This document shows positions 3,462-46,800 of a DNA stretch of 53,298 nucleotides, in pieces; position 1 is the first letter of the stretch; the number at the start of each line of letters is the position of its first letter. The notes below the pieces were generated by a model, which saw only the letters and a list, made by a program, of their open reading frames with translations, did no database searches and was not told where the DNA came from. A program made the translations under genes and the position numbers. Source of the stretch: a virus; IMG/VR virus record IMGVR_UViG_3300042452_001204, positions 1-53,298 of that record. One strand, 5' to 3'.

Positions 3462-3693
3462 ATTAATTTTGCCACTTTTATTTATCTCTTTATTTTTTAC
3501 TTCTCATAGATATGACGGATCGTCCCGTGCTCCTGTTATAATATCCGGAGCTATTGTTAAAAATATGGGAAATGAACCAATTAAAAAATATAAAAGAAAA
3601 GAATGTCCTGTTTGCAAAGGAAGTGGACAATATTTAAGTGGAGATGGTATAAAAATGGTCGATTGCGGATACTGCATTCCTGATAAAAAATAA
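3454..3693 (+). CDS. Small secreted or membrane protein with DnaJ-like zinc motif
   Basis: A 79-residue protein. Residues 1-16 (MNKLILPLLFISLFFT) form a signal peptide or anchor with no lipobox Cys. The C-terminal half carries CPVCKGSGQY and then CGYC, a C-x-x-C-x-G-x-G ... C-x-x-C arrangement like one DnaJ-type zinc-finger unit. It probably binds one zinc or forms disulfides outside the membrane. The start lies inside the end of the preceding small membrane protein gene, so translation is probably coupled. The role is unknown. Confidence 0.6.
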   Translation: MNKLILPLLFISLFFTSHRYDGSSRAPVIISGAIVKNMGNEPIKKYKRKECPVCKGSGQYLSGDGIKMVDCGYCIPDKK

Positions 3694-3714
3694 AGAATCT
3701 GAGGAGATAAGATA

Positions 3715-4104
3715 ATGACTATTGATCCTAAGTTAGAAAATTTAGCACAAAAAATTCTTACTAAAGCAAATATAAAAAATGAAAACTATGGATTTGATCC
3801 TATTACTATTATTATAGTTATAGGAGTTATACTGAGTCTAATTCGCGTTATTCAGGAATGTCGTAGTAAACGTAGAAAAAATGATAAAATGAGTGAAGCT
3901 TTGGACTTAAGACATACTATAGTTAATTTAACTATTAAAGATAGTTGGTTAAATAATTATAGATTAAATAAAATATTAAAACAACATTTGAGTAAAAAAC
4001 AATATCAGCAATACGGAGTTAGTTTAAGAAATGCCATCATGGAAGTTGGTAAGAATCTTGATGATACAGAATCTTTAACACTTCTGGAGGCAACCAATGT
4101 TTAG
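3715..4104 (+). CDS. Hypothetical single-span membrane protein
   Basis: A 129-residue protein with a good ribosome-binding site (GAGGAG at 3701-3706). A hydrophobic helix at about residues 30-43 (PITIIIVIGVILSLI) is followed by a very basic segment (CRSKRRKNDK), which predicts a cytoplasmic C-terminal domain. The last 80 residues look helical and contain a Lys/Gln-rich stretch. It overlaps the next gene by 8 bases. No family is recognised. Position between secreted-type proteins and a GlsB-like membrane protein suggests a role in the same envelope module. Confidence 0.6.
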   Translation: MTIDPKLENLAQKILTKANIKNENYGFDPITIIIVIGVILSLIRVIQECRSKRRKNDKMSEALDLRHTIVNLTIKDSWLNNYRLNKILKQHLSKKQYQQYGVSLRNAIMEVGKNLDDTESLTLLEATNV

Positions 4105-4345
4105 TCTTTTAGTATGGGTGATTTATGGTTTGTTTGTTGGCTCATTAGCCAAAGCTATTGTTCCGCTTAACCTACGTCTTGGATTTTTTCAAACAGTAGC
4201 ATTAGGAGTAGCTGGGTCTTATATGGGCGGAGCTATTCTATATCTTCTTGGTACATATGATAGTCTCAGCCCATCCGGTATTTTTATGGGTGTTACCGGA
4301 GGCATACTTAGCCTAATGTTATATAATAAACTTATTAACAAATAA
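4097..4345 (+). CDS. GlsB/YeaQ/YmgE-like small membrane protein
   Basis: An 82-residue, nearly all-hydrophobic protein with three helices. The opening VWVIYGLFVGSLAKAIVP and the central glycine-rich helix (LGVAGSYMGGAILYL) match the pattern of the 'transglycosylase-associated' GlsB/YeaQ/YmgE family, small stress-linked inner-membrane proteins found in bacteria and sometimes phages. Its function in that family is poorly known. A GGAGG at about 4085-4089 precedes the ATG. It closes the membrane-protein run that began at 377 and lies just before the first giant adhesin gene. Confidence 0.55.
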   Translation: MFSLLVWVIYGLFVGSLAKAIVPLNLRLGFFQTVALGVAGSYMGGAILYLLGTYDSLSPSGIFMGVTGGILSLMLYNKLINK

Positions 4346-4359
4346 TAAATGGAAAATGA

Positions 4360-7300
4360 ATGTCAACTCCTCCAATTTATTCTATCTTAGGAAACTGTAA
4401 TAGCGCTAATTATAGTAAGAACGGAAATGCTTCCTCGGATTGGAATAATGAAAATGGTAATGTTACCAGCGTTGGCAGCAATGGTAATGATAGTTTTTTT
4501 GGCACTTATGATCAAAACGGTAATGTTTATGAAATTATAGACTATCAACCATCGTCATTTTTTATTCAGTTATATGGAGGTAGTTATTCTTCTTTAACAG
4601 CAAATGATTCTATTGATAGTTCTTTAAGTTTAAGAAGAGACGATGTTGGATTTAGAGTATGCGCTAATAGTGGAACAACAACAGCGTTTGATTCTATTAC
4701 AGTTTCTGGTACAGGCAATAATAACGATACTAATGGAATTGGTCAAGTAAATTACAATTATAAAATTGGTAAATTTACTATTACAAATACTCAATATGTA
4801 GAATTTTTAAACGCTGTTGCTAATAGTGGATCGCCCGCATTAATACAAACTAGTGTTTGGCCTTTTCAACGACTAATGCAGGATTCTAATCGTGGAGGAA
4901 TAATAGTAAACGGCTTTAGCCCAAATATGTCTTATTCTGTAAAAACGAATTTTGCAGATAAACCAGTTAATTACGTTACTTGGTATAATGCGGCTAGATA
5001 TATTAATTGGTTACATAACGGAAAACCAAATTCGTCTACTTTATCATTAAATTCTACAGAAAATGGTGTTTATTATCTTAATTTTGAAAATAATGTTACA
5101 ACTATACCAACCATAATAAATAATAAAAATACATATTGGCTACCAGATAGAAATGAATGGTATAAAGCGGCCTACTATACATTAGATAAAAATGGCTCAG
5201 GTTCCGGATATTGGTTATATGCTACGCAATATGATACTGCTCCAGATTCAATTGTTTCTAATAGTAGTGGCGTTGCCAACAATACAGTAACAACACCGGA
5301 CATTTGTATTAGCCCAACACCTACCCCCAGCGTTACTCCTACTTATTCTCCTACTCCTTCTTTAACGGCTAGTCCTACTCTTACTCCAACTAAAACAGCA
5401 ACAAGCACCCCAACAGTCACATCTTCTGTAACAACCACTCCAACACTAACACCAACCAAAACGCCAACAGCCACCATAACTCAAACAAGAACACCTAATT
5501 TAACTGTTAGTCCAACAAAAACACCTACACGTACTCCAACAAGGACACCAAGTTTAACACCATCAACAACAGAAACACGTACTCCAACACCTACAGTTAC
5601 CAGTTCTTCGACGGTAACCCCTACTCCGAGTAAGAGTCTTTGCTCTTCTATAACAGTTGGAGAACTAATTTATAATCCTATTTATACTAATGAAAATATT
5701 AGAATAATTTATAAAGGTTTTACATTTGAATCCTTTATTAACAATAGACAATTACTAGTCAATGGCGGTCAATTAGGAAATGCCGATATAAATATTGGAC
5801 TACAAGAAATTCCTAATGCTAGTCAAACCCCAACTCCTACATTAACGCCAACCAATACTAGTACTCCAACCATCACACCAACAAATACTTCCACAACTAC
5901 TAGTACTCCAACTGTTAGCCCAACACAAACAAACACAGCTTCTGTAACACCAACTAATTCTATTACTCCAACAGTTACAATTACTTCAACAGCGACACCG
6001 ACACCTAGTATAACCGCAAGTCAAACTCCAACACCGTCTATAACGCCAACACTTACACCAACAACAACAGTTACAAATACAGTAACATCAACAGCAACTC
6101 CCACTGTAACTAGCTCAAACACAACAACTCCAACTAATACTCCAACTAACACAGCAACTCCTACAAACACACCAACATTTACTCCATCTTCAACAACAAC
6201 TCCTACTGTTACTCCAACAGTGACAGTAACCCCAACACCACTAGCATTTGCTCCATTATCAAATAGTATAAATTATGCTAATTCCGGTAATTGGAATGGA
6301 TCTGTTTCTGGTAATCTAACAACGGTAGGAACAAATGGAGGTCCAAGTTTTTATGGAACATATGATCAAAATGGAAATATTTCTGAAATAGCTTTAAGTG
6401 TTGTTAATAATACTGATTTAATTTTCAGTATCGGTGGTAATTTTGAAACTGCAACAGGAGATCTAAGATTATTAGAAAATATAAATGAAAATACTTTGGA
6501 TAAAAATATAGGTTTTAGAATTGTTACCACAGGCAATCCTCTTAACTTGCCTTATTTCATAGATATTGTTGATAGTGGAAATAGTGCAGATACTAATGGG
6601 GTTGGATCTGTTAATTATAATTATAAGATAAGTCAATATACAATAACTAACTGTGATTATATACAATTCTTAAATGCTGTTTCTACACAGAGCGATACTA
6701 ATGATACTTATAATGTTCAAATGTCTGGCGATCCATATGGTGGTATTATAAGAAGCACAGGATCAGCACCATATACTTATACTTTAAAAACTAATTTTGA
6801 TAATAAACCAATTAATTTTCTTAATATAAAAAGCATGATGAGATATTGTAATTGGTTACATAATGGTAAACCAATAGGAATACAAGATTTCAGTACAACA
6901 GAAGAAGGTGCATATATATTAGATCCGATTGGTATAACTCCACAAGTAAGTTTAATTGCAAGCAATGGTGCAAAATATACACTACCAACATTAAACGAAT
7001 GGTATAAAGCTGCTTATTATAATCCAAGAAAAAATGGATGGGGTAATGGCGGATATTGGACCTATGCTACACAAAGTGATAGTTTACCAGATAGAATTTG
7101 CTCTAGCGCTAGTGGAGATGGTAGATTAATTATCAGTAATGTTTGTTCAAACACAGAAGGTAATTCTTCTACTATCCTTTGTACGTTTACCCCTACTCCA
7201 AGCGTAACTCCTACCAATACCCCAACAACAACAATTACTAGAACCCCTACTAATACTCCTACTAATACTCCTAGTCTAACTCGAACAATAACTCCGACAA

Positions 7301-9390
7301 CAACCCTATCTCTAACACCAACATCTACTTTAACTCCAACACAAACTATAACAAATACACCAACATCAACTATTGGCGGTACTCCAACAGTAACTCCTAC
7401 ATTAACATCAACTCCTACGAATACTCCTTCTGTAACTGTTAGTCCGACATCAAGTGCTACGCCAACAATCACACCAACTACTACTACAACTCCAACAACA
7501 ACAATTATTGTAACTCCAACAACAACCCCAACGGTTACTCCTACAGAAACTCCAACCGTTACTCCAACAACAACCCCAACAGTTACTCCCACAACAACGA
7601 TTACTCCAACTGTTACTATAACACAAACACCAACAACAACTCCAACCGTTACTCCAACAGAAACTCCAACCCTTACTCCTACAGAAACGCCAACTGTTAC
7701 ACCGACGCTCACCTCTACACCAACAGAAACACCAACACCAACAGTAACACCGACACCAACAGCTACAGAGGGTTTAACACCAACTCCTACCCCATCTGTA
7801 ACAGAAACCCCAACAGTTACTCCAACAGAAACACCAACAACAACCCCAACAGTTACTCCAACAGAAACACCAACAACAACCCCAACAGTTACTCCAACAG
7901 AAACACCAACAACAACCCCAACAGTTACTCCCACAGAAACCCCAACCGTTACTCCGACAACAACCCCAACTGTTACTCCCACAACAACGATTACTCCAAC
8001 TGTTACTATAACACAAACATCAACAACAACACCAACAACCACGCCAACAATTACACAAACCATTACTCCTTCTTCGACACCAATAGCCGGATGGATTCAA
8101 AGAGGTGTAGATATTGATGGCGAGGCAGCTAATGATTACAGTGGAAGTAGTGTTGCTATGAATAATGATGGTACCGTAGTAGCAATAGGAGCATATAGCA
8201 ACGATGGAAATGGAACAGACAGTGGACATACTAGAATATATGCTTGGAACGGAACCTCTTGGATTCAAAGAGGAAATGATATTGATGGTGAAGCAGCTTT
8301 TGATACAAGTGGATACAGTGTTAGTCTCAATAATGATGGAGATATAGTAGCAATCGGAGCAAATGGAAATAATGGTAACGGGACCGATAGCGGAAGCGTA
8401 AGAGTATATGTTTGGAATGGTTCAGTATGGACTCAACGAGGAAGTGATATTGATGGAGAAGCAACCAATGATGCTAGTGGTATTAGCGTTTCTTTAAATA
8501 GCGACGGCACCGTACTAGCAATAGGAGCGTCTTTAAATGATGGTAATGGAACCGATAGCGGTCATGTACGAGTATATAATTGGAATGGTTCAGCATGGAC
8601 ACAACGAGGAAGCGATATTGATGGAGAAGCGGCAAGTGATTATAGTGGACAAAGCGTTAGCTTAAATGATAATGGAGATATATTAGCTATTGGAGCATAT
8701 GGTAATGATAGTAATGGAAATAATAGCGGTCATGTACGAGTATATTCTTGGAATGGCTCAGTATGGACTCAAAGAGGAAACGATATTGATGGTGAATCAG
8801 CTAACGATGCTAGTGGTTTTAATATTAGTATTAATAGTGATGGTACTATACTAGCGATAGGAGCAGGTGGAAATAGCGATAATGGAACAGCTAGCGGCCA
8901 TACCAGAGTGTATGTTTGGAATGGTACTTCTTGGGTTCAAAGAGGAAGCGATATTGATGGAGTAGCAGCAAATGATAATAGTGGTCTTAGTGTATCATTA
9001 AATAATGATGGTAGCATATTAGCTATTGGATCGCCATATAATGACACAAACGGTACCAATAGTGGACATGTACGAGTATATTCTTGGAATGGTAGTTCTT
9101 GGACGCAAGTTGGCGATAATATTAATGGAGAAACATCTTTAAATTATAGTGGAATTAGTGTTCATCTTAATGGAGATGGTACAATATTAACTATCGGAGC
9201 CTCTGGTAATAGTGATAATGGAGCTAGTAGTGGTAGTGTACGAGTATATAGATTAATTGGTATCTCTTTTACGCCCACGCCAACAAAAACCTTAACACCC
9301 ACACCAACTAAAACACCAACAACAACACCAACAGTAACTCCTTCAAAAACAGCATATTATTCAGGCCAACAATATAATTTTATTCCATAA
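4360..9390 (+). CDS. Giant adhesin-like protein with permuted SUMF1/FGE-like domains, Thr-Pro linkers and a seven-blade propeller
   Basis: A 1676-residue protein, probably a tail fibre or host-attachment protein. Residues 5-103 resemble the C-terminal half of SUMF1/FGE-type (C-type lectin fold) domains ([12 protein letters not shown], then VGFRVC). Residues 110-315 resemble the N-terminal half ([37 protein letters not shown]). The same order recurs at about 627-727 and 728-940. Between and after them are Thr-Pro-rich linkers (about 318-427, 489-627, 942-1242) and a small unknown domain (about 427-487). Residues 1245-1636 are seven 56-residue repeats (IDGEA, SG.SVS, DG..LAIGA, SGHVRVY.WNGS) consistent with an FG-GAP-like seven-blade propeller. 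No signal peptide is seen. The order of FGE halves is opposite to the usual one. The next gene has the same linker style. Sulfatase-activating function is not expected; the fold more likely binds ligand. Confidence 0.75.
5308..5637 (+). repeat. Thr-Pro low-complexity linker 1
   Basis: About 110 codons dominated by Thr and Pro in T-P-T / T-P-S steps with irregular spacing. It separates the first SUMF1-like pair from a small unknown domain. Codons for Pro and Thr vary (mostly CCA/CCT, ACA/ACT), so it is an old, diverged low-complexity segment. Such linkers are usually extended and, in secreted proteins, often glycosylated. Confidence 0.8.
5824..6240 (+). repeat. Thr-Pro low-complexity linker 2
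   Basis: About 139 codons of Thr, Pro and Ser between the small domain and the second SUMF1-like pair. It has the same composition as linkers 1 and 3 but no long exact DNA repeat that I could see. Confidence 0.8.
7531..8036 (+). repeat. Tandem and spaced DNA repeats inside Thr-Pro linker 3
   Basis: Linker 3 (about 7186-8085) contains recent DNA-level repeats. A 116-base block at 7531-7646 recurs almost unchanged at 7921-8036, a shift of exactly 390 bases. Between them, a 36-base unit encoding [12 protein letters not shown] is present in three near-identical tandem copies (7810-7845, 7846-7881, 7882-7917) followed by a diverging fourth. All units are multiples of three, so length changes keep the frame open. 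The high identity points to recent slippage or recombination. Confidence 0.8.
8092..9267 (+). repeat. Seven 168-base repeats encoding propeller blades
   Basis: Seven consecutive 56-codon units, each beginning with W.Q(R/V)G.(D/N)I(D/N)G and containing SG....N.DG....IG....(N)..SG..RVY. The first six are closely similar and the seventh is the most diverged, as expected for a closing blade. Each ends with WNG(S/T) except the last. The count of seven matches one complete propeller. Confidence 0.8.
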
Positions 9391-25418: not shown

Positions 25419-27407
25419 ATGATTATAACTTATTTCCGTAGTTCGTCTTATAATGCCCATTCTATGTGCGAACAACAATATTTTTTTGAATATGTACTAG
25501 GATGGAGGGGCCCAAGTGGACAAAAGGCGGATAAAGGAACAATAGTCCATAAAGTTTTAGAAATTCTTGCCATGATCAAACAAGGTCAGCAAGATAAATT
25601 ATCTCATATAAATGATGACGAATTCTTAGGTCTTATAGATATAAATGACTATAGTCTTAATACCATAATAGAAAAAGTATACAAGCATTATAGTACCGCT
25701 AATAGTCATCATACTTGGACTCTAAAAGATTATAAGGACTGCTATAATTGGGTTTACAAGGCTATAGAATTTAATGGCGGTATGTTTGATCCTAGAAATC
25801 GCACCATTCTTAGACCAGAACAACACTTTGATTTGGTAATAGAAAAACCATGGGCTAAATACGAGTATAATATTAATAATCAAAAACTAGATGGATATTT
25901 GGGCTTAAAAGGCACTATAGATCTTATAACTTTGGCTAATGATAATACTATTGAGGTCATAGATTGGAAAGGATTGCCATTAGATACAAAATTACCTACT
26001 CTTGACGGATGGACAACAATTGCAGATATAAATGTGGGATGTAATGTCTTTGATCAATACGGTAATATATGTCGCGTTGTTGGAAAATCAAAAGTCAAAA
26101 CAAAAAAATGTTTCAGAGTAACTTTTGATGACAAAACATCGGTAATTTGTGACGATGAGCATTTATGGAAATTATCTAATGGTGAAACGGTATCTATACA
26201 GGATCTAGTTATTGGCGATACTATTAATGTGACAAAACCATTAAAATGTAATGAACAATCCCTACCAATAGATCCTTATCTATTAGGAGTCTGGTTAGGA
26301 GACGGAAGAAATAGAGGCTGCGAGATTAGTGGCAATGATACTGAAATTTTTGAAGAAATACAAGCAAGAGGTTATGAGCTAGGAAAAATTCAAAATGATA
26401 AAAGATCAAAAAATAAGACAGTATCGATCCTAAATGTGACAAAAATACTAAAATCTTTAAATCTATTGAATAATAAACATATACCAAAAATTTATTTGAG
26501 AGCATCTTTTCAACAAAGGCTAGACTTACTAAGGGGTTTGATGGATACAGACGGAAATGTAAATCCAATTAGAAAACAAACTGTGTTTACTTCTTGTAAT
26601 AAAAAACTATCCGACGATGTTAAAGACCTACTTTTAACCCTTGGGCAAAGACCGAATCAAGCGTGTATTAAAAGAGATACAAATTACAAAAAAAACGTAA
26701 TCATATATCCTATTTCGTTTCGTCCAATTGACATTAATCCTTTTCTATTGAGCAGGAAAAAAGAACTTGTGGATGTAAATTGGGGATCTGGAAGATCTAG
26801 GGTTAGACGAGTTTCTAAAATAGAAGAATCGATTATACAAAAAACTCAATGCATTTCCGTAGACAGTCCAGACAATACTTATCTGTGTACAGAAAATTAT
26901 ATTCCAACACATAATACTGGACGAAGACTAGATTGGGCAACAGGACAAGAAAAAACACAAGAAAAATTAGAAAAAGATCCTCAACTCAAAATCTATCATT
27001 ATGCTATTAAAAAACTGTATCCTCATATAGAGAATGTTATTTTTTCCATATATTTTATTAATGATGGTGGTCCTTTTTCTATGGTTTTTCATGATAGCGA
27101 TCTTGCCGATACTGAAAATATGTTACGTCAAAAATTTGAAATCATTAAACAAACTAAACGACCACGATTGAATAAAAGTTGGATGTGTAATAAATTATGT
27201 CATTTTGGTAAGACTACATTTGCTAATACTAATATTGAGCCATTGAAAGAGTATAGGGATGGACAAATATGTCAAAAAGATTCGATCATGACAAAATGTG
27301 AACAAGTGAAGCACGACCTTGAACTTTACGGGATCGATGCTACAATGAGTATGTACAAGCACCCGAATCATTCTTTTGGATCCTACAAAGCACCCGGAAC
27401 CGTATGA
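25419..27407 (+). CDS. Cas4/RecB-like PD-(D/E)XK nuclease interrupted by an intein
   Basis: A 662-residue precursor. After removal of residues 185-499 the host protein is 347 residues. It opens YFRSSSYNAHSMCEQQYFF with a conserved Cys, then GTIVHKVLEIL (His). The active site is GTIDLI (Asp, about 165) and IEVIDWK (Asp and Lys, about 178-184), which resumes after the intein as TGRRLDWATGQEK. Three or four C-terminal cysteines (MCNKLC, ICQK, KCEQ) together with the N-terminal Cys could hold an iron-sulfur cluster, as in Cas4/AddB-type exonucleases. It is likely a DNA end-processing or recombination nuclease. The intein splits the catalytic motif immediately after the Lys, so the unspliced protein should be inactive. 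It overlaps the polymerase gene (ATGA). Confidence 0.85.
   Translation: MIITYFRSSSYNAHSMCEQQYFFEYVLGWRGPSGQKADKGTIVHKVLEILAMIKQGQQDKLSHINDDEFLGLIDINDYSLNTIIEKVYKHYSTANSHHTWTLKDYKDCYNWVYKAIEFNGGMFDPRNRTILRPEQHFDLVIEKPWAKYEYNINNQKLDGYLGLKGTIDLITLANDNTIEVIDWKGLPLDTKLPTLDGWTTIADINVGCNVFDQYGNICRVVGKSKVKTKKCFRVTFDDKTSVICDDEHLWKLSNGETVSIQDLVIGDTINVTKPLKCNEQSLPIDPYLLGVWLGDGRNRGCEISGNDTEIFEEIQARGYELGKIQNDKRSKNKTVSILNVTKILKSLNLLNNKHIPKIYLRASFQQRLDLLRGLMDTDGNVNPIRKQTVFTSCNKKLSDDVKDLLLTLGQRPNQACIKRDTNYKKNVIIYPISFRPIDINPFLLSRKKELVDVNWGSGRSRVRRVSKIEESIIQKTQCISVDSPDNTYLCTENYIPTHNTGRRLDWATGQEKTQEKLEKDPQLKIYHYAIKKLYPHIENVIFSIYFINDGGPFSMVFHDSDLADTENMLRQKFEIIKQTKRPRLNKSWMCNKLCHFGKTTFANTNIEPLKEYRDGQICQKDSIMTKCEQVKHDLELYGIDATMSMYKHPNHSFGSYKAPGTV
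25971..26915 (+). mobile_element. Intein with class-3 features and LAGLIDADG homing endonuclease
   Basis: A 315-codon insertion (precursor residues 185-499). It begins GLPLDTKLPTLDGWTT with Gly in place of the usual Cys/Ser, and ends YIPTHN followed by Thr of the host protein. Splicing blocks are visible: block B DDEHLWKL (His 248, Trp 250), block F TQCISVDSPDNTYL (Cys 478), block G PTHN (Thr 497, Asn 499). The Trp/Cys/Thr set is the signature of class 3 inteins, which use the block F Cys instead of residue 1. Between them are the two endonuclease motifs LLGVWLGDGR (about 288-297) and LRGLMDTDGN (about 371-380). Splicing and homing both appear intact. Confidence 0.88.
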
Positions 27408-29272
27408 CTTATTCAGTACTACATTGTCATTCTCATTTTTCATTATTGGATGGCTTAAATAGACCAGAGCAAATTGCCACCAGATGTGCCAAACTGGGCA
27501 TAAAATCATGCGCCTTAACAGATCATGGTAATATTGCTGGATCGGTACAGTTTTATCAGAAAATGAGATCTAAGAATATTAAACCTATTCTTGGATGCGA
27601 ATTATATATTTGTGAAGATGATCCATCAATACAAACAAAAGAGAATGCTTCCTTGTCGCATTTTCTCGTACTTGCTAAAAATTTAAAAGGCTGGAAAACA
27701 CTCATCAAAATAGTCTCGGAATCAAATAGGCCAGATTATTTTTACCATAAGCCAAGACTAAGTATCAAAAAATTATCAGAATTACTAGATGGTAACATAA
27801 TAGGTGTTTGTGGTCATTTGGGATCGACCCTATCGGATATTATCTTAAAAGATCAGGATAATAGTATTTCTAATGGTCTTTCTTTTATAGACAATATGAA
27901 AACTATATTCGGTGATAATAATTTTTATTTGGAAACACAATTATTCGATAAAGACTATCTAAAAGAACAAGTCTATTTAACAGAAACGATTAGGCGACTA
28001 TCCGAATTAAGTAAAATTAAGGCAGTATCTACTCCCGATGCTCATTATTGCGAACAAGACGACGCTATAGACCAAAGGATTCTTCTTTGCAATAATTTAA
28101 AAACAACACTATCTGATATTAATACTAAATTAATTAATAATCAAAGTATTCCTATGGAGTGCTTCTTTAAAAGTGATAAATATTATATCCTATCTCCAGA
28201 AGAGATGACGAACCTACATAGTCCACAGGAAATAGAAAATACAATTTTTGTCGATAGCTTAATAGAAGAGTTCGACATCTTATCTGCTCCAAAATTGCCT
28301 AATTTTGATTGTCCAGAAAACTATGATCCTGATGAATTTTTAAGGGAATTGTGTAGAGTTGGATGGAAAAATAAAATCATTCCAAATATTCCAAAGGATG
28401 ATCATCAAGTTTATGTAGATAGAATAAAATATGAGTTAGATATATTACAAGGTGCTAGTTTATCTAGTTATTTTTTAATTGTGCAAGATATAGTCAACCA
28501 TGTTAGACATAATAACTGGCTACCTGGACCGGGCAGAGGAAGTGGGGCTGGGTGTCTGGTTTCTTACCTTGTTGGTATCACAGATATTGATCCCATGAAA
28601 TATGATTTATTATTCGAAAGATTTTATAATGCTGGTAGAAATACTAAAGATAGAATCTCTATGCCAGATATTGATATAGATATTCCAATCGATAAACGCG
28701 AACAAGTATTAGAATACATAAAAAATAAATATGGACACAGTAAAGTATCTCAAATGATTACTTTTAATACTATGAAAGGTAGAGGGGCACTAAAAGACGT
28801 ATTGCGAGTATATGGTAATATTAGTTTCGAAGAGATGAATACTATTACTAAGTTTATTCCTGACGAAGCTAAGATAGCGGACGAGCTTCAAGAAATGAAA
28901 GAAGATACTGGAGAAGCATCTATTATCAGATGGGCTCTAGAAAATAATACGGATAAACTAAAAGAATGGTGCTATATATCTGAAGAGGACGGGACTTTAT
29001 CTGGGCCTCTATCTAAAAGATTTGAACAGGCAATAAGATTGGAGGGAACAAAATCTAATCAAAGCAAACATGCTGCTGGTGTAATAATAGGTACTCAAGA
29101 CCTTGCGTCTTTATGCCCGATGGTCTATGATAACAGAAATGATCAGCTTATCGCTGGCATGGAGATGAACGATCTAGAGAGTTTGGGTCTAATAAAATTT
29201 GACATATTGGGTATCGCATATTTGGATAAAATTATGTCAGTATCAGAATATTTAAAACACGGAGAACTATAA
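27404..29272 (+). CDS. dnaE: DNA polymerase III alpha subunit, N-terminal part (PHP and palm)
   Basis: A 622-residue protein matching the first half of DnaE. The PHP domain starts HCHSHFSLLDG (about 7-17), with ALTDHGN, GCELYI and PDAHY further on. The polymerase palm has GPGRGSGAGCLVSYLVG (about 371-387), PDIDIDIP (about 421-428, two catalytic Asp) and GLIKFDILGIAYL (Asp about 600, the third catalytic residue). The protein stops 22 residues later, before the fingers. The missing part is encoded at 30151-31764, beyond a small gene and an exonuclease gene. Together the two parts (about 1160 residues) equal full DnaE length. Confidence 0.9.
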   Translation: MTYSVLHCHSHFSLLDGLNRPEQIATRCAKLGIKSCALTDHGNIAGSVQFYQKMRSKNIKPILGCELYICEDDPSIQTKENASLSHFLVLAKNLKGWKTLIKIVSESNRPDYFYHKPRLSIKKLSELLDGNIIGVCGHLGSTLSDIILKDQDNSISNGLSFIDNMKTIFGDNNFYLETQLFDKDYLKEQVYLTETIRRLSELSKIKAVSTPDAHYCEQDDAIDQRILLCNNLKTTLSDINTKLINNQSIPMECFFKSDKYYILSPEEMTNLHSPQEIENTIFVDSLIEEFDILSAPKLPNFDCPENYDPDEFLRELCRVGWKNKIIPNIPKDDHQVYVDRIKYELDILQGASLSSYFLIVQDIVNHVRHNNWLPGPGRGSGAGCLVSYLVGITDIDPMKYDLLFERFYNAGRNTKDRISMPDIDIDIPIDKREQVLEYIKNKYGHSKVSQMITFNTMKGRGALKDVLRVYGNISFEEMNTITKFIPDEAKIADELQEMKEDTGEASIIRWALENNTDKLKEWCYISEEDGTLSGPLSKRFEQAIRLEGTKSNQSKHAAGVIIGTQDLASLCPMVYDNRNDQLIAGMEMNDLESLGLIKFDILGIAYLDKIMSVSEYLKHGEL

Positions 29273-29455
29273 ATGCTAACAAAAACTTTAGATCAAGTTG
29301 CTGCTGGCGAAATATTCAAGGTTAATAATATTAACTATGTCAAAATCGCCGAGGTTCGTGTCAGTTGTTGCAGAACCGTGAACTGTCACGTTCTAGAAGA
29401 TAGTAATCAAAGGACTTTTTTCCCAGGAAACACAGTTGTGGAGACTAATGGCTAA
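29273..29455 (+). CDS. Small hypothetical protein inside the split polymerase locus
   Basis: A 60-residue protein whose ATG follows the polymerase stop immediately (TAAATG). Pattern: AAGEIFKVNNINYVKIAEVRV, then two Cys (SCCRTVNC) and TFFPGNTVVE. The alternating strands and the 'G..F.v....Y.k' start resemble small SH3-like barrel proteins common in phages. No function is known. It overlaps the start of the exonuclease gene by 8 bases. (The first quoted pattern spans about residues 10-30.). Confidence 0.55.
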   Translation: MLTKTLDQVAAGEIFKVNNINYVKIAEVRVSCCRTVNCHVLEDSNQRTFFPGNTVVETNG

Positions 29456-30149
29456 TTTACAAAAAATTTGTGTATTCGATTTAGAAACGGACGGGGCTAA
29501 TCCCGATATTTGTAGCCCCGTTCAAATCGCTGCTGTTATTATCGATCCTTATAAATTAGAAATAATCAAAGATTCAGAATTTAATATCAATCTAAAGCCC
29601 CAAGCAATACAAGATAATCCAGAATATATATATGATGATTCAGATGTTCTGGATTTTCATGCCAAAGTTAGAGGATGTGATAAAACAAAAATCTTAGAAG
29701 ATTGGAGATCTTTCCAGAAACAAGACAGTGGATGGAAAATGTTTGTATCATATTTGGAAAAATATCATATAAGATCTGATAAAAAATCTTGCTTTACAGC
29801 TCCTATTGCTGCTGGCTATAATATTAATAGATTCGATCTAAGAATTATAGATAGATTAAGCATAAAATATAATAATGTCAATAAGGAGGGACGAACATCT
29901 CTATTTTATCCACGAGATGTTATTGACTTAATGAACGTTATTTTTTATTGGTTTGAAGGTAATAATGAGCTTAAAAACTATACACTTGATAATGTTAGAG
30001 AATATTTAGGATTAGGAAATAGTGGCTCTCATGATGCTCTAAATGATGTTAGGGCAACAGCTGATATTTTGATAAGGTTTATGAAATTACATAGAAATTT
30101 ATCGAATAAGGTAAAATTCAGAAACGCCTTTGCTCTTGCAAAAAATTGA
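29448..30149 (+). CDS. DnaQ-like 3'-5' exonuclease (proofreading type)
   Basis: A 233-residue exonuclease with all three Exo motifs: VFDLETDGANPD (about 9-20, Exo I with Asp and Glu), AGYNINRFDLRII (about 121-133, Exo II) and SHDALNDVRATADIL (about 190-204, Exo III-epsilon with His and Asp). The ATG at 29448 has GGAG at 29440-29443 and is preferred over an in-frame TTG at 29436. It is longer than the E. coli epsilon core and has an extended middle. Lying between the two halves of the polymerase alpha chain, it is very likely its proofreading partner. Confidence 0.88.
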   Translation: MANLQKICVFDLETDGANPDICSPVQIAAVIIDPYKLEIIKDSEFNINLKPQAIQDNPEYIYDDSDVLDFHAKVRGCDKTKILEDWRSFQKQDSGWKMFVSYLEKYHIRSDKKSCFTAPIAAGYNINRFDLRIIDRLSIKYNNVNKEGRTSLFYPRDVIDLMNVIFYWFEGNNELKNYTLDNVREYLGLGNSGSHDALNDVRATADILIRFMKLHRNLSNKVKFRNAFALAKN

Positions 30150-30150
30150 A

Positions 30151-31764
30151 ATGACTCAATATTTTACTTTTGATTGTGGATGTAAGTTCAAGGTTTTGGA
30201 ATATACCTCAGAAGGAATTCCAAAAATAGAATTTACAGGTAAGTTGAGCGATCTTAATCTTGATTGTTCAAAAACATGGTCTATGATCGGAGATGGTAAT
30301 ACCAAGGGTGTATTTCAACTAGAATCAAGGTTAGGTTCTAGTATGGCTAAAAAATTAAAACCAGAGAATATAGAACAACTATCTGCCCTAATTAGTATTA
30401 TGAGGCCAGGATCTTTGGAAGCTTATAGAGATGGTAAAAGTATTAGTCATCATTATATAGACAAAAAGAATGGTCAAGAAAGCTTAGACTATTTTCACCC
30501 ATCCCTTGAGCCATCATTAAAATCAACCTATGGAGAGATGATATATCAAGAACAGGCCATGCAAATCGCGCAAGCGGTGGCTGGTTTTGATCTACAAGAG
30601 GCAGATATGCTGCGTAAAGCAATTGGCAAAAAGAAGCCAGAAGAAATGGCTAAGATCAGGGTAAAGTTTAAGGATGGTGCTAAAAAACTGAATATAGTCA
30701 ACGACGAAGAAATAGACGAAATATTTAGTTGGATTGAAAAAAGTCAAAGATATTCTTTTAACAAAAGCCACGCTGTGTCATATGCTATGAATGCATATTC
30801 TTCGGCTTATGCAAAAGCTCATTTTGCTAAAGTATTTTTTGCATCATACCTTAAATTTGCAAAAGATAAAATGGATCCTCAAAAAGAAATAAAAGAACTA
30901 ATACGTAATGCAACAGAAATGGATGTGATTGTATGTGTTCCTGATGTAAGAAAGCTTAATAAGCATTTTACTATTAGCGATGATAAAATATATTTTGGTC
31001 TTACCGATATTAAGGGTGTCGGTTATTCTGTTTATGATAAATTATTAACTATTATTAAAGACTTAGATATAAATAATATATCTTGGAATACATGTTTAGT
31101 TAAAGTTTTAACAAAAATTAATTCCACAGCAGCTAAAGCATTAATATCATGTGGCGCTTTAGATCATCATAATATCACCCGTACAAAAATGTTATTTGAA
31201 TACGATATAATATCTGAATTAACTTCTAGAGAATTAGATCTATTAGACTTGGAAAAGTCGTCTATTGCACAATCTTTACATGGTTTATTGACACAAAATA
31301 AAATTAATATTAAGCGAAAAAGTAGCATACAAAATCTTATCAATTTATATAACAATCCGCCATATTCATTAGATGATAAAATAGAATGGCTATCTGATAC
31401 AGAAAATGCTTTATTAGGGGCCTCTATAACTTGTTTTAAGATAGATTCTTATGATATTAGTATGACAAATTGTGATTGTAAAGCTTTCAAGACTACCAAC
31501 GCATCAAAAAATATTATTTTAGCAGGAGAAATTAGTTCCATCAACTTTGTCAAAACAAAAAACGGCAAAAATCCTGGGGCTGAAATGGCCTTTGTCACAA
31601 TAGAGGATCAATTTGCATCACTAGACTCAGTAATATTATTTCCTGAGCAATTATCAAAATATCGTAACTATCTATTCGATGGTAATGTACTAATATTCTT
31701 AGGTAATAAAAGTTCTAAAAAAGATTCTTTTATAGTGGAGAAATGTTTTATACCAAGATCTTGA
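30151..31764 (+). CDS. dnaE: DNA polymerase III alpha subunit, C-terminal part (fingers, HhH and OB)
   Basis: A 537-residue protein matching the second half of DnaE. It begins with about 30 residues of its own (MTQYFTFDCGCKFKV), then NTKGVFQLESRLG, which is the fingers start in DnaE (TGVFQLES). MIYQEQAMQIAQAVAGF, ADMLRKAIGKK and FNKSHAVSYAMNAY are standard alpha-subunit blocks. IYFGLTDIKGVGYSV is the helix-hairpin-helix region and the end (about 440-537, ILAGEISSINFVKTKNGK) is the OB fold. The ATG at 30151 was chosen; an in-frame TTG at 30130 would overlap the exonuclease. It must assemble with the N-terminal part. Confidence 0.88.
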   Translation: MTQYFTFDCGCKFKVLEYTSEGIPKIEFTGKLSDLNLDCSKTWSMIGDGNTKGVFQLESRLGSSMAKKLKPENIEQLSALISIMRPGSLEAYRDGKSISHHYIDKKNGQESLDYFHPSLEPSLKSTYGEMIYQEQAMQIAQAVAGFDLQEADMLRKAIGKKKPEEMAKIRVKFKDGAKKLNIVNDEEIDEIFSWIEKSQRYSFNKSHAVSYAMNAYSSAYAKAHFAKVFFASYLKFAKDKMDPQKEIKELIRNATEMDVIVCVPDVRKLNKHFTISDDKIYFGLTDIKGVGYSVYDKLLTIIKDLDINNISWNTCLVKVLTKINSTAAKALISCGALDHHNITRTKMLFEYDIISELTSRELDLLDLEKSSIAQSLHGLLTQNKINIKRKSSIQNLINLYNNPPYSLDDKIEWLSDTENALLGASITCFKIDSYDISMTNCDCKAFKTTNASKNIILAGEISSINFVKTKNGKNPGAEMAFVTIEDQFASLDSVILFPEQLSKYRNYLFDGNVLIFLGNKSSKKDSFIVEKCFIPRS

Positions 31765-38204: not shown

Positions 38205-38649
38205 TATAGGATTTATGCTTATAAATATAGAAAATGATCAACACCATGATTCTATGCTACAAAATATTAGAAAATTGATAGATGCTAATCCATATAAAAA
38301 TATTGTTATATTTAATAGTATTTGTAATAAAATTACTACTTATAATATCCCTATCTTGCATCTGAGTCACGCTAAATTTTTTGAGGGCGACTTATGGCTA
38401 TTTGATTTAACTAGTGTTATTATTAGTAAGAACTTCACCAATCTTAATAAAAAAATACTATATTGTAATGACATGCCGTGGTTAAAAAATAGAACTAATA
38501 TATATAACGAATGGCTAAAGATTTACGATTCTGATCTAGATTTTGTAACTACCAATCAATATTTGTATGATATATACAGTATATGTTGGAAAAAACCATT
38601 AGATATTATGGAGAATTTCGATTATGAAAAAATACAACACATCGTATGA
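38191..38649 (+). CDS. Hypothetical protein at the end of the glycosyltransferase cluster
   Basis: A 152-residue protein starting at GTG (38191). Motifs are weak: an N-terminal strand-helix (IGFMLINIENDQHHD), a middle 'ILYCNDMPWLKNR', and an end 'SICWKKPLDIMENFDYEKI' like a short glycosyltransferase N-domain. It overlaps the nuclease gene that follows by 26 bases, the longest overlap in the cluster. Function unknown. Confidence 0.4.
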   Translation: MIKNNIGFMLINIENDQHHDSMLQNIRKLIDANPYKNIVIFNSICNKITTYNIPILHLSHAKFFEGDLWLFDLTSVIISKNFTNLNKKILYCNDMPWLKNRTNIYNEWLKIYDSDLDFVTTNQYLYDIYSICWKKPLDIMENFDYEKIQHIV

Positions 38650-39436
38650 CCAACTATCTGATCAAGATAAAAAAGATCTAATATTATCTTTATATTCATC
38701 AGAAGGTAAGAGCTTTGCTGATATAGCTACTATGTACGATACTTATGCTAATAGAATAAGACGAGACGCTAAAAAATATAATATAAAAATCAGAGATAAA
38801 AGCGAAGCTCAAAAAAATGCATTAAAAACTGGCAAACACTCTCATCCAACAAAAGGCAAAGAAAGATCAGAGGACACAAAACAAAAAATAGGGATGGGAG
38901 TATTAAACGCATGGGAAAATCTCGAAGACAACGAAATACAAAAAAGAAAGCTTAAAGCTAAACAAAATTGGGAAAATTTAGACGATAACACAAAAGAAAA
39001 CATACTTAAATCTGCTAATATGGCAGTAAGAACCACCAGCAAGGTAGGATCAAAATTAGAAAAATATCTACATAAAAGACTATTAAGTGATGGTTATAAA
39101 GTAGAGTTTCATAAAGAGCAAACACTGGTAAACACAAGGTTGCAAATTGACCTGTTCGTTCCTAGTATAAATCTAGCTATAGAAGTGGATGGTCCATCTC
39201 ACTTCACTCCTGTGTGGGGCCAAGAATCTTTAAAAAGAAATAAAAACTACGATAATAAAAAAGAAGGATTAATCATTGGTAAAGGATGGAACTTATTGAG
39301 AATTATACAAACTAAAGATTATTCTGATGCTCGTGCGTTTTTGATCTATGATCAAATACTACAGATTATAAAAACAAATCATTCTGATCTCATTTCTGGA
39401 CAACAGAAATTTATTATAAAGGATACCAATGGCTAA
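38624..39436 (+). CDS. NUMOD3-bearing Vsr/EDxHD-like nuclease (free-standing homing type)
   Basis: A 270-residue protein. Residues about 10-52 include a helix-turn-helix (SFADIATMYDTYANRIRRDA). Residues 65-130 contain repeated NUMOD3-like DNA-contact segments (HSHPTKGKERSEDTKQKI, NAWENLED, QNWENLDD). The catalytic domain is at about 140-250, with KVGSKLEKYLHKRL (Glu), LQIDLFVPSINLAIEVDG and SHF (Asp, Glu/Asp, His), then WNLLRIIQTKD. NUMOD3 plus a Vsr-type core is the layout of phage homing endonucleases. It is not inside a visible intron, so it may home between phages as a free-standing gene. Confidence 0.75.
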   Translation: MKKYNTSYDQLSDQDKKDLILSLYSSEGKSFADIATMYDTYANRIRRDAKKYNIKIRDKSEAQKNALKTGKHSHPTKGKERSEDTKQKIGMGVLNAWENLEDNEIQKRKLKAKQNWENLDDNTKENILKSANMAVRTTSKVGSKLEKYLHKRLLSDGYKVEFHKEQTLVNTRLQIDLFVPSINLAIEVDGPSHFTPVWGQESLKRNKNYDNKKEGLIIGKGWNLLRIIQTKDYSDARAFLIYDQILQIIKTNHSDLISGQQKFIIKDTNG

Positions 39437-40840: not shown

Positions 40841-43800
40841 TTATTTTTCTCTCGGTGGTGGTGTATTCGTAAAAAATTCATATGGTATCATTTCCCATAG
40901 AAACTGACTTTTTAATATGGTGCCTTTATTTTCTATTCGATCTATTGATCCATAAAATGTTCTATACATCATCTCATTCATTAGTTGAAAAAACAATGGG
41001 GTTGTTGATGGTACTAATTTAGTATCTTCTATTTCCATACATTTCCAATAATAAATATTATTATTTAATATAGGCTGAAAAGACGAACCACTAACAGATC
41101 CCGCTTCTACTATCTCGTATGGATCCAAAATATCGCTAATTTGATTTCTTTTACCCGGTCTAAATAAACCAGTTGGACCATATCTATACACAGTACTGTA
41201 GATATCTAGTCCGCGTAATTGTCTAGGTATTTTTCTAAATTTTATTTTTAGATTATTTACATTATCTAAATTGCATACATTATATATTTTCATTGATTGA
41301 CCAGCTCTAATACCTCCCAATGTTAATAGTCCAAAACCATCAACAGATTTTTGAGGAACAGAAGCCCCTATTGTTTCTCCTGGTGGAGGCAAACTAGAAA
41401 CAAAATTACCATCATCTGGTGGCGGTGGAGAAGGATCATCCGGATCACCACCTCCTACTCCACCAGGTAAATTGCCTATATCCAACACATCAGCATCCTG
41501 AGTACTATTGGTTTTGTCTGCCTTGTTATCTTTTATTTCTAATGGGCTTAGTAATACATCATATGTTTCTATTGCTGTTACCATAATTTCTTTATAACTA
41601 TTTATGGTATCCATTCCAGCAGCATTGCCATTGATATGATAATTTCTTTTTATCGTAACTTCTTCCCATTTTATAGGTAATCCTGCTGCTGTTGCTTTTT
41701 TTTCTAAATTAGTTTTATTTTTATTAACTATATTTTCTCCAATAGTATATTTATATGTTTCATATGGCCCACTTCTAAATCCACTAGTACTACCTTTGCT
41801 GTAATTTATACCATCAGGATCATCTTCTTCGTTTTCCAATATGGATCCTCGTTTATGATTACAAATATTATTTATTGCTAATTGAGGCATTCCATATATT
41901 CCTTGTATATAATTTGCTGGTCTACAAACATATGTTATGCTTTTCAAAACTTTCGGTCTTAGCTCTTCCGCTATACTACAGCCTTGATGAGGATCCAAAT
42001 TTATCCAGTAATTATCATTATCGTATTCGTACTCTATCTGAAAAGCTAAAAGAGATAATCTATCAAAAGGTCTGAATGTTTTAATTTTAGCTAAAATTTG
42101 AGGCTTAATACCATGTCTAGTTCGTTCAAAATCTCTAGTAATAGATACAATATCTTCTTTCAATATAGTATTTTCTTTAAATGTTGTAATATCATCAACC
42201 ACAACGGATTCTAATACTGTAATAGATTCAATATTTTCACGAGCAATCTTTCCGGAGATAATAGATGTTTTATTTTTTATTGTTATTCTTGCTTTTTGAT
42301 AATCGCTAGTTTCGTTTAATAGTTTTAGAATATCATTTCTTTCTTGATAAAAAACTCTAAGAGCTAATTCAGAGATTTTTTTATTAGAGTTATATTCTGT
42401 TAAAGATTCATAGTGTCTATAAATATAGGATAAATTATAACTTTCAATGACTTTATTTGTGGCAACAATAGTATTTACGCCTATGTTTGATTCTACCTCT
42501 AAATTTACATTAGTATTTTCTAATAAATTAAGCCTTGTTATTAAATTTTGAAAAACTTCATTACTTATAGGATCTCCATTAATATCTGTCGCTTCAATTG
42601 GCGGCTTCTCTTCATAATCATTTTCTATTGATATATAACCACTAGGGTACGGAACCATCGAAGAATCTCTAAAATTATTATTTCTTATATATGTTAAATG
42701 AATATTATTAAAATCAACATTATTAAACGAAAAATATTTAGAATTACTTAATAAATTATCTAAAGTTGTTGAGTTTGCTGGATTATTTACTATATATTTA
42801 CTATTATTATCAACAACAGTAATAACATCATTCAGTTTATGGGGATAGGCTACAGAAGCACCTACATATTTTAAAGAATTAATTTGTTCACTTTGTTCTT
42901 TAGTAAAAAACATTTTATTATACAATAATCTATCTGATTTATGATTATTAAACATGTTACCAATTTTTTCAATATTATTGTACATAGGTATTTGAGATAG
43001 GATATTTTTATTTATTGTGTAAGACCCATCTCCATATGAACCATAACTATTTGTTGTATTATATACTTCCGGGTGCGGCCTATTTAATGATTCTTTTTCA
43101 AAAGCATACATGTTCACAGGATTATTCTTTAAGTCTGTAGAGGACGATAATCCAAATACTACAATTACATTATTATCAGGACTAATAAAGTCTGCTTTAT
43201 CCATATCTAATCTATCTACTTTTAATATAGTATACGGTTTTTTATCTTTATAAATTAGTGCTTTACCTAATATTTTGGTAGTATATTTTGGAGTAGTATC
43301 CGCTGGTGCAACAGGTTGATCGGGCTGTGTCGATGTGGGTGTTACGGACGGGGTTTCTCCTGTTGGTCCATCAATAAGATTAACATCTATAATTGCATCT
43401 GGAGCAATATTTTGACCACTAACTTGAACAATATCCTTAAAAGTAAATATCTCAAATGGTACAGTTCCGTCTATCATTATTAATTTTTTTTGATTAATAT
43501 CTGAATACAGATTTTTAAAAATGCTATATTCGGTATCAGGTAAATCATTATATAAAACATGATTACGTGTTATATAATCTGATTTCTCACATAATATCGA
43601 AGGTTTTTGTGCTAAAGATACCCATTTACCAGTAGTCGGAACAAAATAGAGACCATCAACACAAACATTAGAGCTATCTGTAGATGAGAATCTTACATCC
43701 ACAATATCATCCGTATGATACGATATATTATTATAAGTCAATGGGCCGCTAACAGCATTAAACTCTGTGCAGCCTATGGTTAATTCTTTGATAGACTTTT

Positions 43801-46800
43801 CCTCTAGTAAATCTTTGATATTTTCAACTACTTTAACAGAAAATCTGGATAATTCTGGCAGCGTATCCTTATTTAATCTGATATAGTTATATTTTTTATA
43901 TGGCAATATAGGACTATTAGCGTATTTAAAAATAGAGGCTTCTGCTTTATACCAAAAAATATTATCTTTTGAAAAATTAATTAGTATTTTTTCTGGACTA
44001 CCAAAAGGATATCGTTTGTAATCTTGATGATAAATATCATTAGCTATGGCTTGTCTAAAATCTTGAGCTCTTTGAGCATTAAAATAATTAACAATTTGTC
44101 CTACGGCTATAGACATAGCAATGTCGCCTCCTCCAAGACCCGCCATAATTCCTCCTAAACCACCAGCCCCACCAAGACCAACAGCTCCCGTATATGCGTA
44201 TGTTGCAGCTAAAATAGCCAGCCATGGAAATTCTACGCCAGGAATACCCTTAATATTTCCAATGAGTTCCGGATCTGATGCTTCACAAATTGTATTATCT
44301 TGAAAAAATATATTAGGAGCATTAATATTTACAAATGGCATCATATGCTTATAGTTTTTTAAGTTTGCCATAAAACCATACCCACCATACTGGGGTGGCT
44401 TACCGTACTCTATAAGAGATAATGCTTCATTATTTCCATATGAATTTAATGATGACAAGATTGGAGCCGTTGGTTTTTTAGTATCTCCAAAATGTAACAA
44501 CAGCTCCCAACTACATAATGAACTATATAAACTACTAGAATTAATTTTATTAGTAAAATCATAAATATTTGTATATAATTGAGAATTAATAGTATTATCA
44601 TTAGGCAACATATCATCATGTTCATCATATAATGTTATAGCGCAAGTAAAAAATGTGACATCGTTTTTATTAGGCCCTTTTGTTCCCTTAATCCCAGCAC
44701 CACCTCTTGGTGGACAACGCACAGTAGAATCAAACATTGGTTTACCAGCATATTTACTAAATGTATTATTGGTAATGTTAAGCTTATTAGCCGTAACCGC
44801 ATTATGATAAATATTTACTTCTTGATCACTATATCCAAATGGACAAATAGATGGTTTTATAATATCATCAGTGTTAATAATATTTTGATAATTAGCAGCA
44901 ACATATCCTGAACTATTATTATAGTTATGATCGTTTACAACATTATATTTATTGGCATGGTCAGAGAATTTTAAACTAAGATTAAAACTATGATTCTGAA
45001 TATATTCTTGATTTAAAAGATATAAGTGAGGATTCGATGTTGGTTCTTTATATGGAACAGAGATTCCAGCAACAGATGTTTTTGTAAATCTTGTATTCAT
45101 ATTAGATAAGCTATATAAATATTGAGTTAAATCAGAATTATTAATATTTATTGGATTAAGAGGCCAGTCTTGTGGAGCTGCCAAGCTATCAAAATCTGAT
45201 TGTATTGTTTGATCTATAAATATTGATCCTCCAGCAATTGGTGATTTATATCTTTCACCGCCACCAATTCTATATAGTTCATCTAGACATGGTTTAGAAT
45301 CAAATACTATACTTAAATCTTTTGTGTTAACATAGTTTAGAAAATTTAGTTTAACTTCTATATCTTTAATAGAAAAATTCAATACTCTAGGATTTCTAAA
45401 GCCTTTCCATGTTCCGGTTGGATTTGGTAAGTTTTCATAATAGTTTGCTGGTTGCTCTCCATTATCTTTAATACAATTTGGATTGGATCTTCTGGCCTTA
45501 CTCATATATTTGACTATATCTTCTGGTATAGGCCCTGGAGGATATCTTGGTCCAGAAACTGGGAAAAGATATTTAAACCTATTATTTTCTGAATCACTAA
45601 TGAAACCAAATTCATCCATGAAGGGTGAAAAATTATCGTAAGATCTAGCTTCGTATCTTTTTGGATCTCCTCCTCTTAATATTCTATATCCATGATCATA
45701 GGCTTTTCCATTTGCGCTAGGTATATCTTGATCGCCGTATTCTCTATGGATTTGATTAAGCCAAACCCAGTGAGGAGGACTATCGGATCTACACGGTGTT
45801 GTTCCGCCACATTGTATGCTTTCTTGAATCCACTGAGCGCCTTCTGCTATTCCTATCTCTATTGATGATTTAAATTGTATTGGAATAATAAAAAGATTAT
45901 TTCCGCTATATATATAGCTATCATTCTGAATATTGTTTATACTAGGGCCGCTAAAACTATAAGACTCTCTAGCTCCAACATTGAATTTTAAAACACTAGA
46001 TAGATTCTCTATGCCGCTATGTAATGGACTATCATAAGATATCCATCCGCTTTGAGGATGAAAAACACCCTTTTTAAAATCGATATATTTATCAGAATTA
46101 TCCGGTATAATATCCTCAAAACAATATTTAAAGCCCTCTGCAAAATAAGGAGGATCCAATGATGGTTTGTCAGATTTATAATTTAATGGCTTTCCTGTGA
46201 TAGCCGGAAACACAGTTCCAGGATCCGGATGATTAGGAATACTTATTCCTATATTATTAATTATTTCATTATCCCAGCCACCATATGATTTTATTTTTGG
46301 TGAAAAATCGGTACTAAAAGTCTCATTATTTTCCTTATCAAGTGCTCCACCCCAAGATCTATAATGATAAGTATTATTTTCCCATCCATCTAGAGTAGAA
46401 CCCTTTCCTCTTATCCAGTTTCCTCTTGATCCGTATAGATCTGTTGAATATAAACTAAAACAATTAGCGCATTTTGGATCAGAATGGTGTCTTATATGTT
46501 CAAGTTTTATTTTATCTAACCTATATTGAATATTAGCATCAGAAAAATATCTTAATATAATATTAGAAGATTGATCATACTTATAGGATGAGTCCGCTTT
46601 GCCATCTTTTATAGGTCCTCCATAGTAATCTTCTAAATAGTATAGCGTATTGTTAATTAATTTTTCTGGCCGACTCTTTAGAACTTTAATATCTGATGTC
46701 ATGGCTATAGGTAAAGCTAATCCTCTACCATGTATTGCTATACTATTTATAATTGGAGTATGAACTCTTAAATTTTTAGAATTTAATATAATATCATGTT

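Follow-up and report, generated by a model that had tools for sequence, protein, structure and literature searches.

A probable mobile class 3 intein behind the active-site lysine of a Cas4/RecB-like nuclease in an uncultured phage

Class 3 inteins are characterized by Trp B:12, Cys F:4 and Thr G:5 (WCT), together with His B:10 and a terminal His-Asn pair, in the accounts of PMC5222942 and PMC3196547. Kelley et al. (2016; PMC5050341) describe 40 of them in C1 mycobacteriophages, inserted into a Cas4/RecB-like exonuclease with a PD-(D/E)XK motif, the genes of which were formerly annotated as HNH endonuclease; by that account, both the kind of intein and its insertion site were known beforehand. 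The locus treated here belongs to the IMG/VR virus record IMGVR_UViG_3300042452_001204, the whole of which (53,298 nucleotides) was analyzed and is termed the window in the following. It harbours a nuclease gene with an in-frame insert (Table 1), which is very probably a mobile class 3 intein located in a Cas4/RecB-like phage nuclease between Lys184 of the D-x-K motif and Thr+1, with splicing and homing as proposed below. Added to the C1 case are (i) a clade of inteins with Gly as residue 1 at this site, (ii) their patchy presence on the tree of the host gene, and (iii) a short conversion-like tract around the insertion point.

The borders given for a 315-residue insert in an earlier note on this DNA, i.e., between IEVIDWK and TGRRLDW, are exact to the codon, with the frame open throughout and a predicted spliced product of 347 residues. 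A scan of viral contigs with the precursor gave 332 confirmed stretches; the top 80 of these were retained and yielded 78 loci (L-numbers denote loci). The identical junction with insert is present in 34 of them, 43 are precisely empty, and in the remaining one (L044) the contig ends before the site; D-(W/Y)-K precedes the junction in 77 of 77 loci. Empty sites read DWK/TG (37 loci), DYK/SG (3), DYK/TG (2) or DWK/SG (1), the slash marking the insertion point, and the 43 uninterrupted homologues share 71–98 % identity in the best segment. L041 is 98.3 % identical to the extein of the window over 240 residues; the value for both L042 and L043 is 92 %. All insert-bearing loci have DWK before the insert and Gly1 as its first residue; two (L028, L036) leave the contig inside the insert, and the 32 with the C-terminal junction present carry Thr (31) or Ser (1) at position +1. 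Judged by this alignment, which had been set beforehand as a check, the family exists without the insert and its uninterrupted members fix the predicted junction.

Table 1 Features of the nuclease-intein locus (positions refer to the window)
Feature	Position	Strand	Remarks
Precursor open reading frame (ORF), Cas4/RecB-like PD-(D/E)XK nuclease plus intein	25419..27407	+	single open frame, 662 codons plus stop
N-extein, 184 residues, ending in TIEVIDWK; residue -1 is Lys184; contains conserved Cys17	25419..25970	+	D-x-K of nuclease motif
Class 3 intein (predicted), 315 residues, Gly1-Asn315 (precursor residues 185-499)	25971..26915	+	exactly 315 codons
Block B, His64-Leu65-Trp66 (His B:10; Trp B:12, W of WCT)	26160..26168	+	H64 and W66 invariant in 42 aligned inteins
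LAGLIDADG motif 1, LLGVWLGDG, intein residues 104-112	26280..26306	+	acidic Asp111 kept
LAGLIDADG motif 2, LLRGLMDTDG, intein residues 186-195	26526..26555	+	acidic Asp194 kept
Block F, Cys294 (TQCISVDSPD), C of WCT, predicted initiating nucleophile	26850..26852	+	invariant in 42 aligned inteins
Block G, Thr313-His314-Asn315 (PTHN): T of WCT, penultimate His, cyclising Asn	26907..26915	+	invariant in 42 aligned inteins
C-extein, 163 residues, starting Thr+1-Gly; Cys at spliced positions 275, 279, 303, 312	26916..27404	+	275, 279 and 312 near-invariant
Intein plus flanks from -37 to +13, proposed co-conversion tract	25934..26928	+	intein-plus alleles including the window vs empty L041: 13/50 flanking differences

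The six residues expected to carry out splicing (His64, Trp66, Cys294, Thr313, His314 and Asn315) show no variation among 42 aligned inteins (that of the window and 41 from viral-contig loci) or in a 23-member set including annotated phages; HxW, a block F Cys and THN recur in each of 80 additional class 3 loci (the best 80 of 589 confirmed relatives). The best sequence match in the PDB is the class 3 DnaB intein of M. smegmatis (6bs8, 2e-14). An AlphaFold model of the intein, with a predicted local distance difference test score (pLDDT) of 95.2, is matched by Foldseek to PI-SceI over HINT and endonuclease domains (1.4e-19) and, in its HINT part, to the class 3 DnaB inteins 6bs8 and 6rix, with target template modelling (TM) scores of up to 0.92, which places the modelled fold in the HINT family. 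By sequence and model, the insert is thus a class 3 intein with the Trp/Cys/Thr set recognized by the earlier note. The same note had called both LAGLIDADG motifs intact, as is corroborated by the two retained acidic residues; LAGLIDADG_3 (PF14528) is found by Pfam in the insert at 9.4e-7 when the precursor is scanned and at 2.4e-7 when the insert is scanned by itself. The guanine-plus-cytosine (GC) contents of insert (32.2 %) and exteins (32.1 and 33.3 %) are alike, so that composition gives no hint of a recent arrival, and a search for a second copy in the record, which is identical with the window, returned a single match only.

The glycine at residue 1, to which the earlier note had attached particular weight, is present in 34 of 34 insert-bearing loci, but is not peculiar, since residue 1 varies in class 3. 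A census of 80 further class 3 loci, which lean towards the query as the top-ranking part of 589 relatives confirmed from 600 candidates, gave Ala (44), Pro (14), Gly (9), Cys (4), Arg (3), Leu (2), Asp (2), Met (1) and Gln (1), with starts extrapolated by at most four residues for those tblastn alignments that set in at query residue 2, 4 or 5. In the same loci residue -1 is Lys in 60, as part of a Walker A-like GK (38), of (D/E)xK (8, the eighth of which, L168, reads EGK and also fits the GK site) or of other contexts (14), while 20 lack this Lys; residue +1 is Thr (55), Ser (23) or Cys (2). A non-nucleophilic residue 1, as usual in class 3, is provided by Gly1 according to the alignments. 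This wide variation rules out Gly1 as an anomaly; Gly1 mostly marks the nuclease-site lineage and represents no mechanistic oddity. The combination of Gly1 with a (D/E)xK junction occurs in seven of the 80 loci (L093–L099). The other two Gly1 loci are class 3 inteins of terminase genes (L145:1811-2854 and L118:2501-3484) and fall outside the nuclease-site clade. A pattern search for Gly1 in phage Traft412 gave no match, and Traft412 is not counted.

The host part of the precursor matches PDDEXK_1 (Pfam, 1e-12), and the uninterrupted homologue L042 does so at 3.8e-17 and additionally matches the PADLOC Cas4 profile at 5.3e-10. A model of L042 (pLDDT 76, weak at residues 266–284) is related by Foldseek to the Argonaute-associated Cas4-family nuclease ACE1 (1.2e-6) and more weakly to AdnAB/AddAB nucleases; VIA-align Z scores are 13.2 for the AdnA nuclease, 11.5 for ACE1, 10.2 for Dna2, 9.2 for RecE and 8.1 for Cas4. 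Sequence profiles and modelled fold thus identify the host as a Cas4/RecB-like PD-(D/E)XK nuclease with a (D/E)xK core motif and, together with the junction alignment, agree with the placement of the insert directly behind the D-x-K lysine that the earlier note had proposed. CRISPR Cas4 proper was rejected despite the PADLOC match: TIGR00372 (NCBIfam cut-off 65 bits) reaches 27 bits with the interrupted protein and 34, 36.1 and 31.1 bits with uninterrupted L042, L043 and L057.

Cys17 and Cys108 are conserved in 78 of 78 loci and Cys303 in 58, whereas Cys275, Cys279 and Cys312 are found in 70, the remainder being gaps except for one Ile and one Leu. Nucleases of the Cas4/AddB type with an iron-sulfur (Fe-S) cluster contribute one N-terminal and three C-terminal cysteines to the cluster. 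From the conservation pattern, a cluster formed by cysteines of both exteins appears possible. The gene is preceded by genes for a primase and a deoxynucleoside monophosphate (dNMP) kinase, followed by one for a DnaE polymerase, and a UvsX-like recombinase and a DnaB-like helicase are encoded further upstream; going by these neighbours, the nuclease probably takes part in replication or recombination. A scan of bacterial genomes for the host gene yielded four loci, all in metagenome-assembled genomes and spread over four different groups, and therefore points to no particular host.

From this analysis we infer splicing, endonuclease cutting, nuclease activity and the dependence of that activity on splicing, which the earlier note expected to be strict, according to the following scheme. 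As in homologous class 3 inteins that have been studied, Cys294, positioned by His64, Trp66 and Thr313, would attack the Lys184-Gly1 bond; Thr+1 would receive the N-extein as an ester, cyclisation of Asn315 would release the intein, and an O-N acyl shift would remake DWKTG within a nuclease of 347 residues. Prior to splicing, the motif as well as Cys17 and the C-terminal cysteines (maybe of one Fe-S cluster) would reside on separate segments. The excised 315-residue protein would act as a homing endonuclease, with intein-free alleles in co-infecting phages as predicted target, and repair would copy the intein in and carry a few tens of flanking bases along.

In a tree built from 52 extein rows (17 intein-bearing, 35 empty; omitted were L001–L006 as too far, L028, L036 and L044 as truncated, L035 as short, L085 as being the window itself, and identical rows), presence of the intein changes six times, five of these changes being forced by starred branches; bootstrap trees require six to eight changes and shuffled labels about 14.5 on average. 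Intein-bearing L024 and empty L067 are sisters (100/99), and empty L041 belongs to a starred set of six rows, the other five of which bear the intein. The ratio of nonsynonymous to synonymous substitution rates (dN/dS) for the endonuclease domain is 0.085 (window-L023), 0.084 (window-L025), 0.145 (L023-L024), 0.149 (L024-L025) and 0.11 (window-L038), from which the domain looks to be under purifying selection. This picture of a maintained, mobile element is weakened by several points: bootstrap support in the extein tree is unsettled and some branches are long; dS is high in these five comparisons and saturated in four others, so that the values are rough; very close pairs, with few changes, give 0.33–0.35, and the window against L037 gives 0.29. 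Moreover, the inteins of L037 (L037:3559-4350, 264 residues) and L039 (L039:3556-4272, 239 residues) are shortened and their LAGLIDADG motifs broken, which, to judge from their sequences, is endonuclease decay with the splicing residues retained.

In some pairs of alleles with and without the intein, differences are concentrated around the insertion point. The comparison of intein-bearing L012 with empty L041 shows mismatches at 13 of 50 positions (-37 to +13), compared to 19 of 1619 elsewhere (hypergeometric p 7e-13) and 31 of 3492 upstream of -60. Since the bounds of the tract were picked after the data had been seen, random placement is the fairer control: 10,000 random placements gave at most eight differences in any 50 bp of this comparison. 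The same 13 differences recur in L014, L020, L021 and L029 (p 2e-12 to 4e-10), which together with L012 make up five of nine compared intein-plus alleles, with L013, L018, L019 and the window omitted from the test. Most are silent third-position differences, and three change residues (D-E, N-K, R-K). The tract suggests co-conversion during recent homing, i.e., a recent spread of the intein among these alleles.

A number of observations limit this interpretation. L018 lacks the -37 difference, and L041 is a single contig ending 169 bp beyond the site. Against L041, the window itself shows differences at 481 of 3492 ungapped positions upstream, 20 of 169 downstream and 16 of 139 beyond +30, and L013 and L019 differ upstream at 480 and 2171 of 3492 ungapped positions, respectively; because of these differences further out, the clean contrast is valid for some intein-plus relatives, but not for the haplotype of the window. 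Finally, no sampled donor matches the intein-plus flank, the best one outside the clade agreeing at 74 of 90 positions.

The missing donor would also be compatible with the reverse course of events, in which recombination with an empty allele removed an intein, or in which an intein-free allele was recoded against the endonuclease, and the predominance of silent third-position differences is what a recoded target would be expected to show. However, L042 and L043, the sister empties, agree with L041 at eight and nine of the 13 tract positions, respectively, and with the intein-plus state at three each, so that the intein-plus haplotype looks derived; besides, the C at -13 and that at +13 in the window and L012 occur in none of the other nine alleles tabulated. 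Loss or recoding is therefore considered unlikely, albeit a serious competitor, since with no sampled donor fitting the converted flank, the preference for gain by homing rests on two sister alleles.

A further concern is that the element might be dead or capable of cleavage only, leaving the nuclease gene inactivated in these phages. At least one class 3 look-alike, the pseudo-intein Arth_1007 of Arthrobacter, is inactive according to PMC3196547, but it lacks Cys F:4 and His B:10, both of which are present here. In addition, dN/dS between window and L023 is 0.115 for the N-extein and 0.204 for the C-extein, indicating at sequence level that the exteins of intein-bearing alleles are still under purifying selection, which renders an inactivated gene improbable. 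That the insert is an ordinary accessory nuclease domain is hardly credible, even though the frame is open through it and an unspliced protein would be made, given the 43 homologues that lack it cleanly at one bond within D-x-K-T-G, the invariance of all splicing residues in the 42 aligned inteins, and a history of its own, evident from 41–45 % identity of the inteins compared to 20–28 % of the exteins (global alignment) between the window and L001–L004 and from the spliced extein having no named homologue at 1e-3 (tblastn) in the phage records searched.

Downstream of the nuclease gene, a DnaE-type polymerase is encoded in two genes (27404-29272, PHP and DNA_pol3_alpha; 30130-31764, finger domain and HHH) with a DnaQ-like exonuclease gene (29436-30149) between them, and L184 of a distant relative contains ORFs of like sizes in the same order as this split region. 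The N-terminal half of DnaE is interrupted by about 1.1 kb in three of six relatives' records searched (those of L017, L018 and L021), next to the PDIDID motif near RIS/MPDID, where the copy of the window is uninterrupted. In L183 (G002:C1:25000-33500) the interrupting stretch (3390-4540) contains a 283-residue LAGLIDADG ORF; the interruption may be an intron, a split gene or another element; Rfam gave no match in the window, L183 or L184, and a permissive Rfam scan of L183 (3350-4650) yielded one chance-level snoRNA match (E 3.6). A likely free-standing HNH/homing-type endonuclease gene is located at 38624-39436 (+), matching PHROG 559 at 1.1e-13, with NUMOD3 just below the cut-off. GC skew falls to -0.36 at 6001-8000 within a 1676-residue ORF (4360-9390), which also contains an opposite-strand open frame of 333 residues (7062-8063). 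A 2726-residue ORF (40841-49021, -) has no Pfam match at E 0.01.

The present locus adds a group of uncultured phages to those in which this intein site was known. Its most useful feature is the allele series, which seems to have been recently mobile: alleles that are near-identical along some 3.7 kb, but either carry the intein or lack it, form an unusually clean natural experiment, and the same series comprises a conversion-like tract of a few tens of bases, empty sisters and two relatives with a decaying endonuclease. Homing of class 3 inteins, length of co-conversion and target specificity thereby become testable on natural substrates. If nuclease activity depends on splicing, the placement in the active site would furthermore provide a tight on/off splicing assay.

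How the Gly1 inteins relate to those of the C1 phages was assessed with a tree of 101 rows and one of 52 rows drawn from these. All 24 nuclease-site Gly1 inteins form one clade in the former (Shimodaira-Hasegawa-like approximate likelihood ratio test, SH-aLRT, 99), as do all 17 in the latter (99/90; 100 % of bootstrap trees). Members stem from phages of Mycobacterium (Zeeculate), Streptomyces (Frankenweenie) and Pseudomonas (Rollin), from a human-faeces phage and from IMG/VR contigs. Bixzunavirus McWolfish gp211 (L086) and Myrnavirus ScoobyDoobyDoo gp195 (L087), the genera of which correspond to clusters C1 and C2, are both annotated as HNH endonuclease; their junctions read VELK/SLACSTP and VEFK/ALAVDTP and both end in PTHN/TQNS, so that the insertion bond, between the ExK lysine and Thr+1, is the same as in the window. 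The 52-row tree unites them with an intein of a terminase (98/95), outside the Gly1 clade. Constraining all 19 nuclease-site inteins together costs 14.9 log units, with a p of 0.18 in the approximately unbiased (AU) test; the tree topology thus suggests two invasions of the K/T bond, a single clade not being rejected by the AU test.

PDDEXK_1 is not reached by Pfam in L095–L099, L004, L002, L086 and L087. These loci were placed at the nuclease site by their DxK/T, DxK/C (L097) or ExK/T junctions, in the case of L002 also by the depositor's note and in that of L086 and L087 by the account of Kelley et al. (PMC5050341). Searches of an open-licence library yielded no earlier description of the Gly1 nuclease-site clade. 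One may speculate, with considerable doubt, that the Gly1 inteins form a class 3 lineage of their own, whose arrival at the K/T bond was independent of the C1 inteins and perhaps due to an ectopic jump from Walker A-like GK/T or GK/S sites, where close to half of the class 3 relatives sampled reside, and that this lineage later spread to phages infecting unrelated hosts. As the host protein is probably a phage recombination or resection nuclease, splicing would then couple the release of endonuclease and break-processing enzyme in equal numbers, which, if true, could favour homing.

Among known systems, the class 3 DnaB-1 inteins of M. smegmatis and M. chimaera (6bs8, 6rix) share HINT fold and WCT active site with the intein of the window, but are chains of 139 and 145 residues devoid of an endonuclease and reside in the DnaB helicase. 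PI-SceI, the yeast VMA intein and a member of class 1, has the same HINT plus LAGLIDADG architecture and is the best Foldseek match, yet shares 15 % identity and has an unrelated host protein. L086 and L087 correspond to the window in class, LAGLIDADG domain and, following Kelley et al. (PMC5050341), Cas4/RecB-like host, and differ by Ser or Ala as residue 1 (by alignment) and by 30–31 % identity to the intein of the window. The inteins of Zeeculate (L001, annotated as RecB-like exonuclease), Frankenweenie (L002, exonuclease, with the note 'Cas4 exonuclease and intron') and Rollin (L003, hypothetical protein) belong to the same clade as the intein of the window, are 42–45 % identical to it and agree with it in Gly1, WCT, THN, the preceding D-x-K and the following Thr, whereas their exteins, from phages of other hosts, are 20–28 % identical (global alignment).

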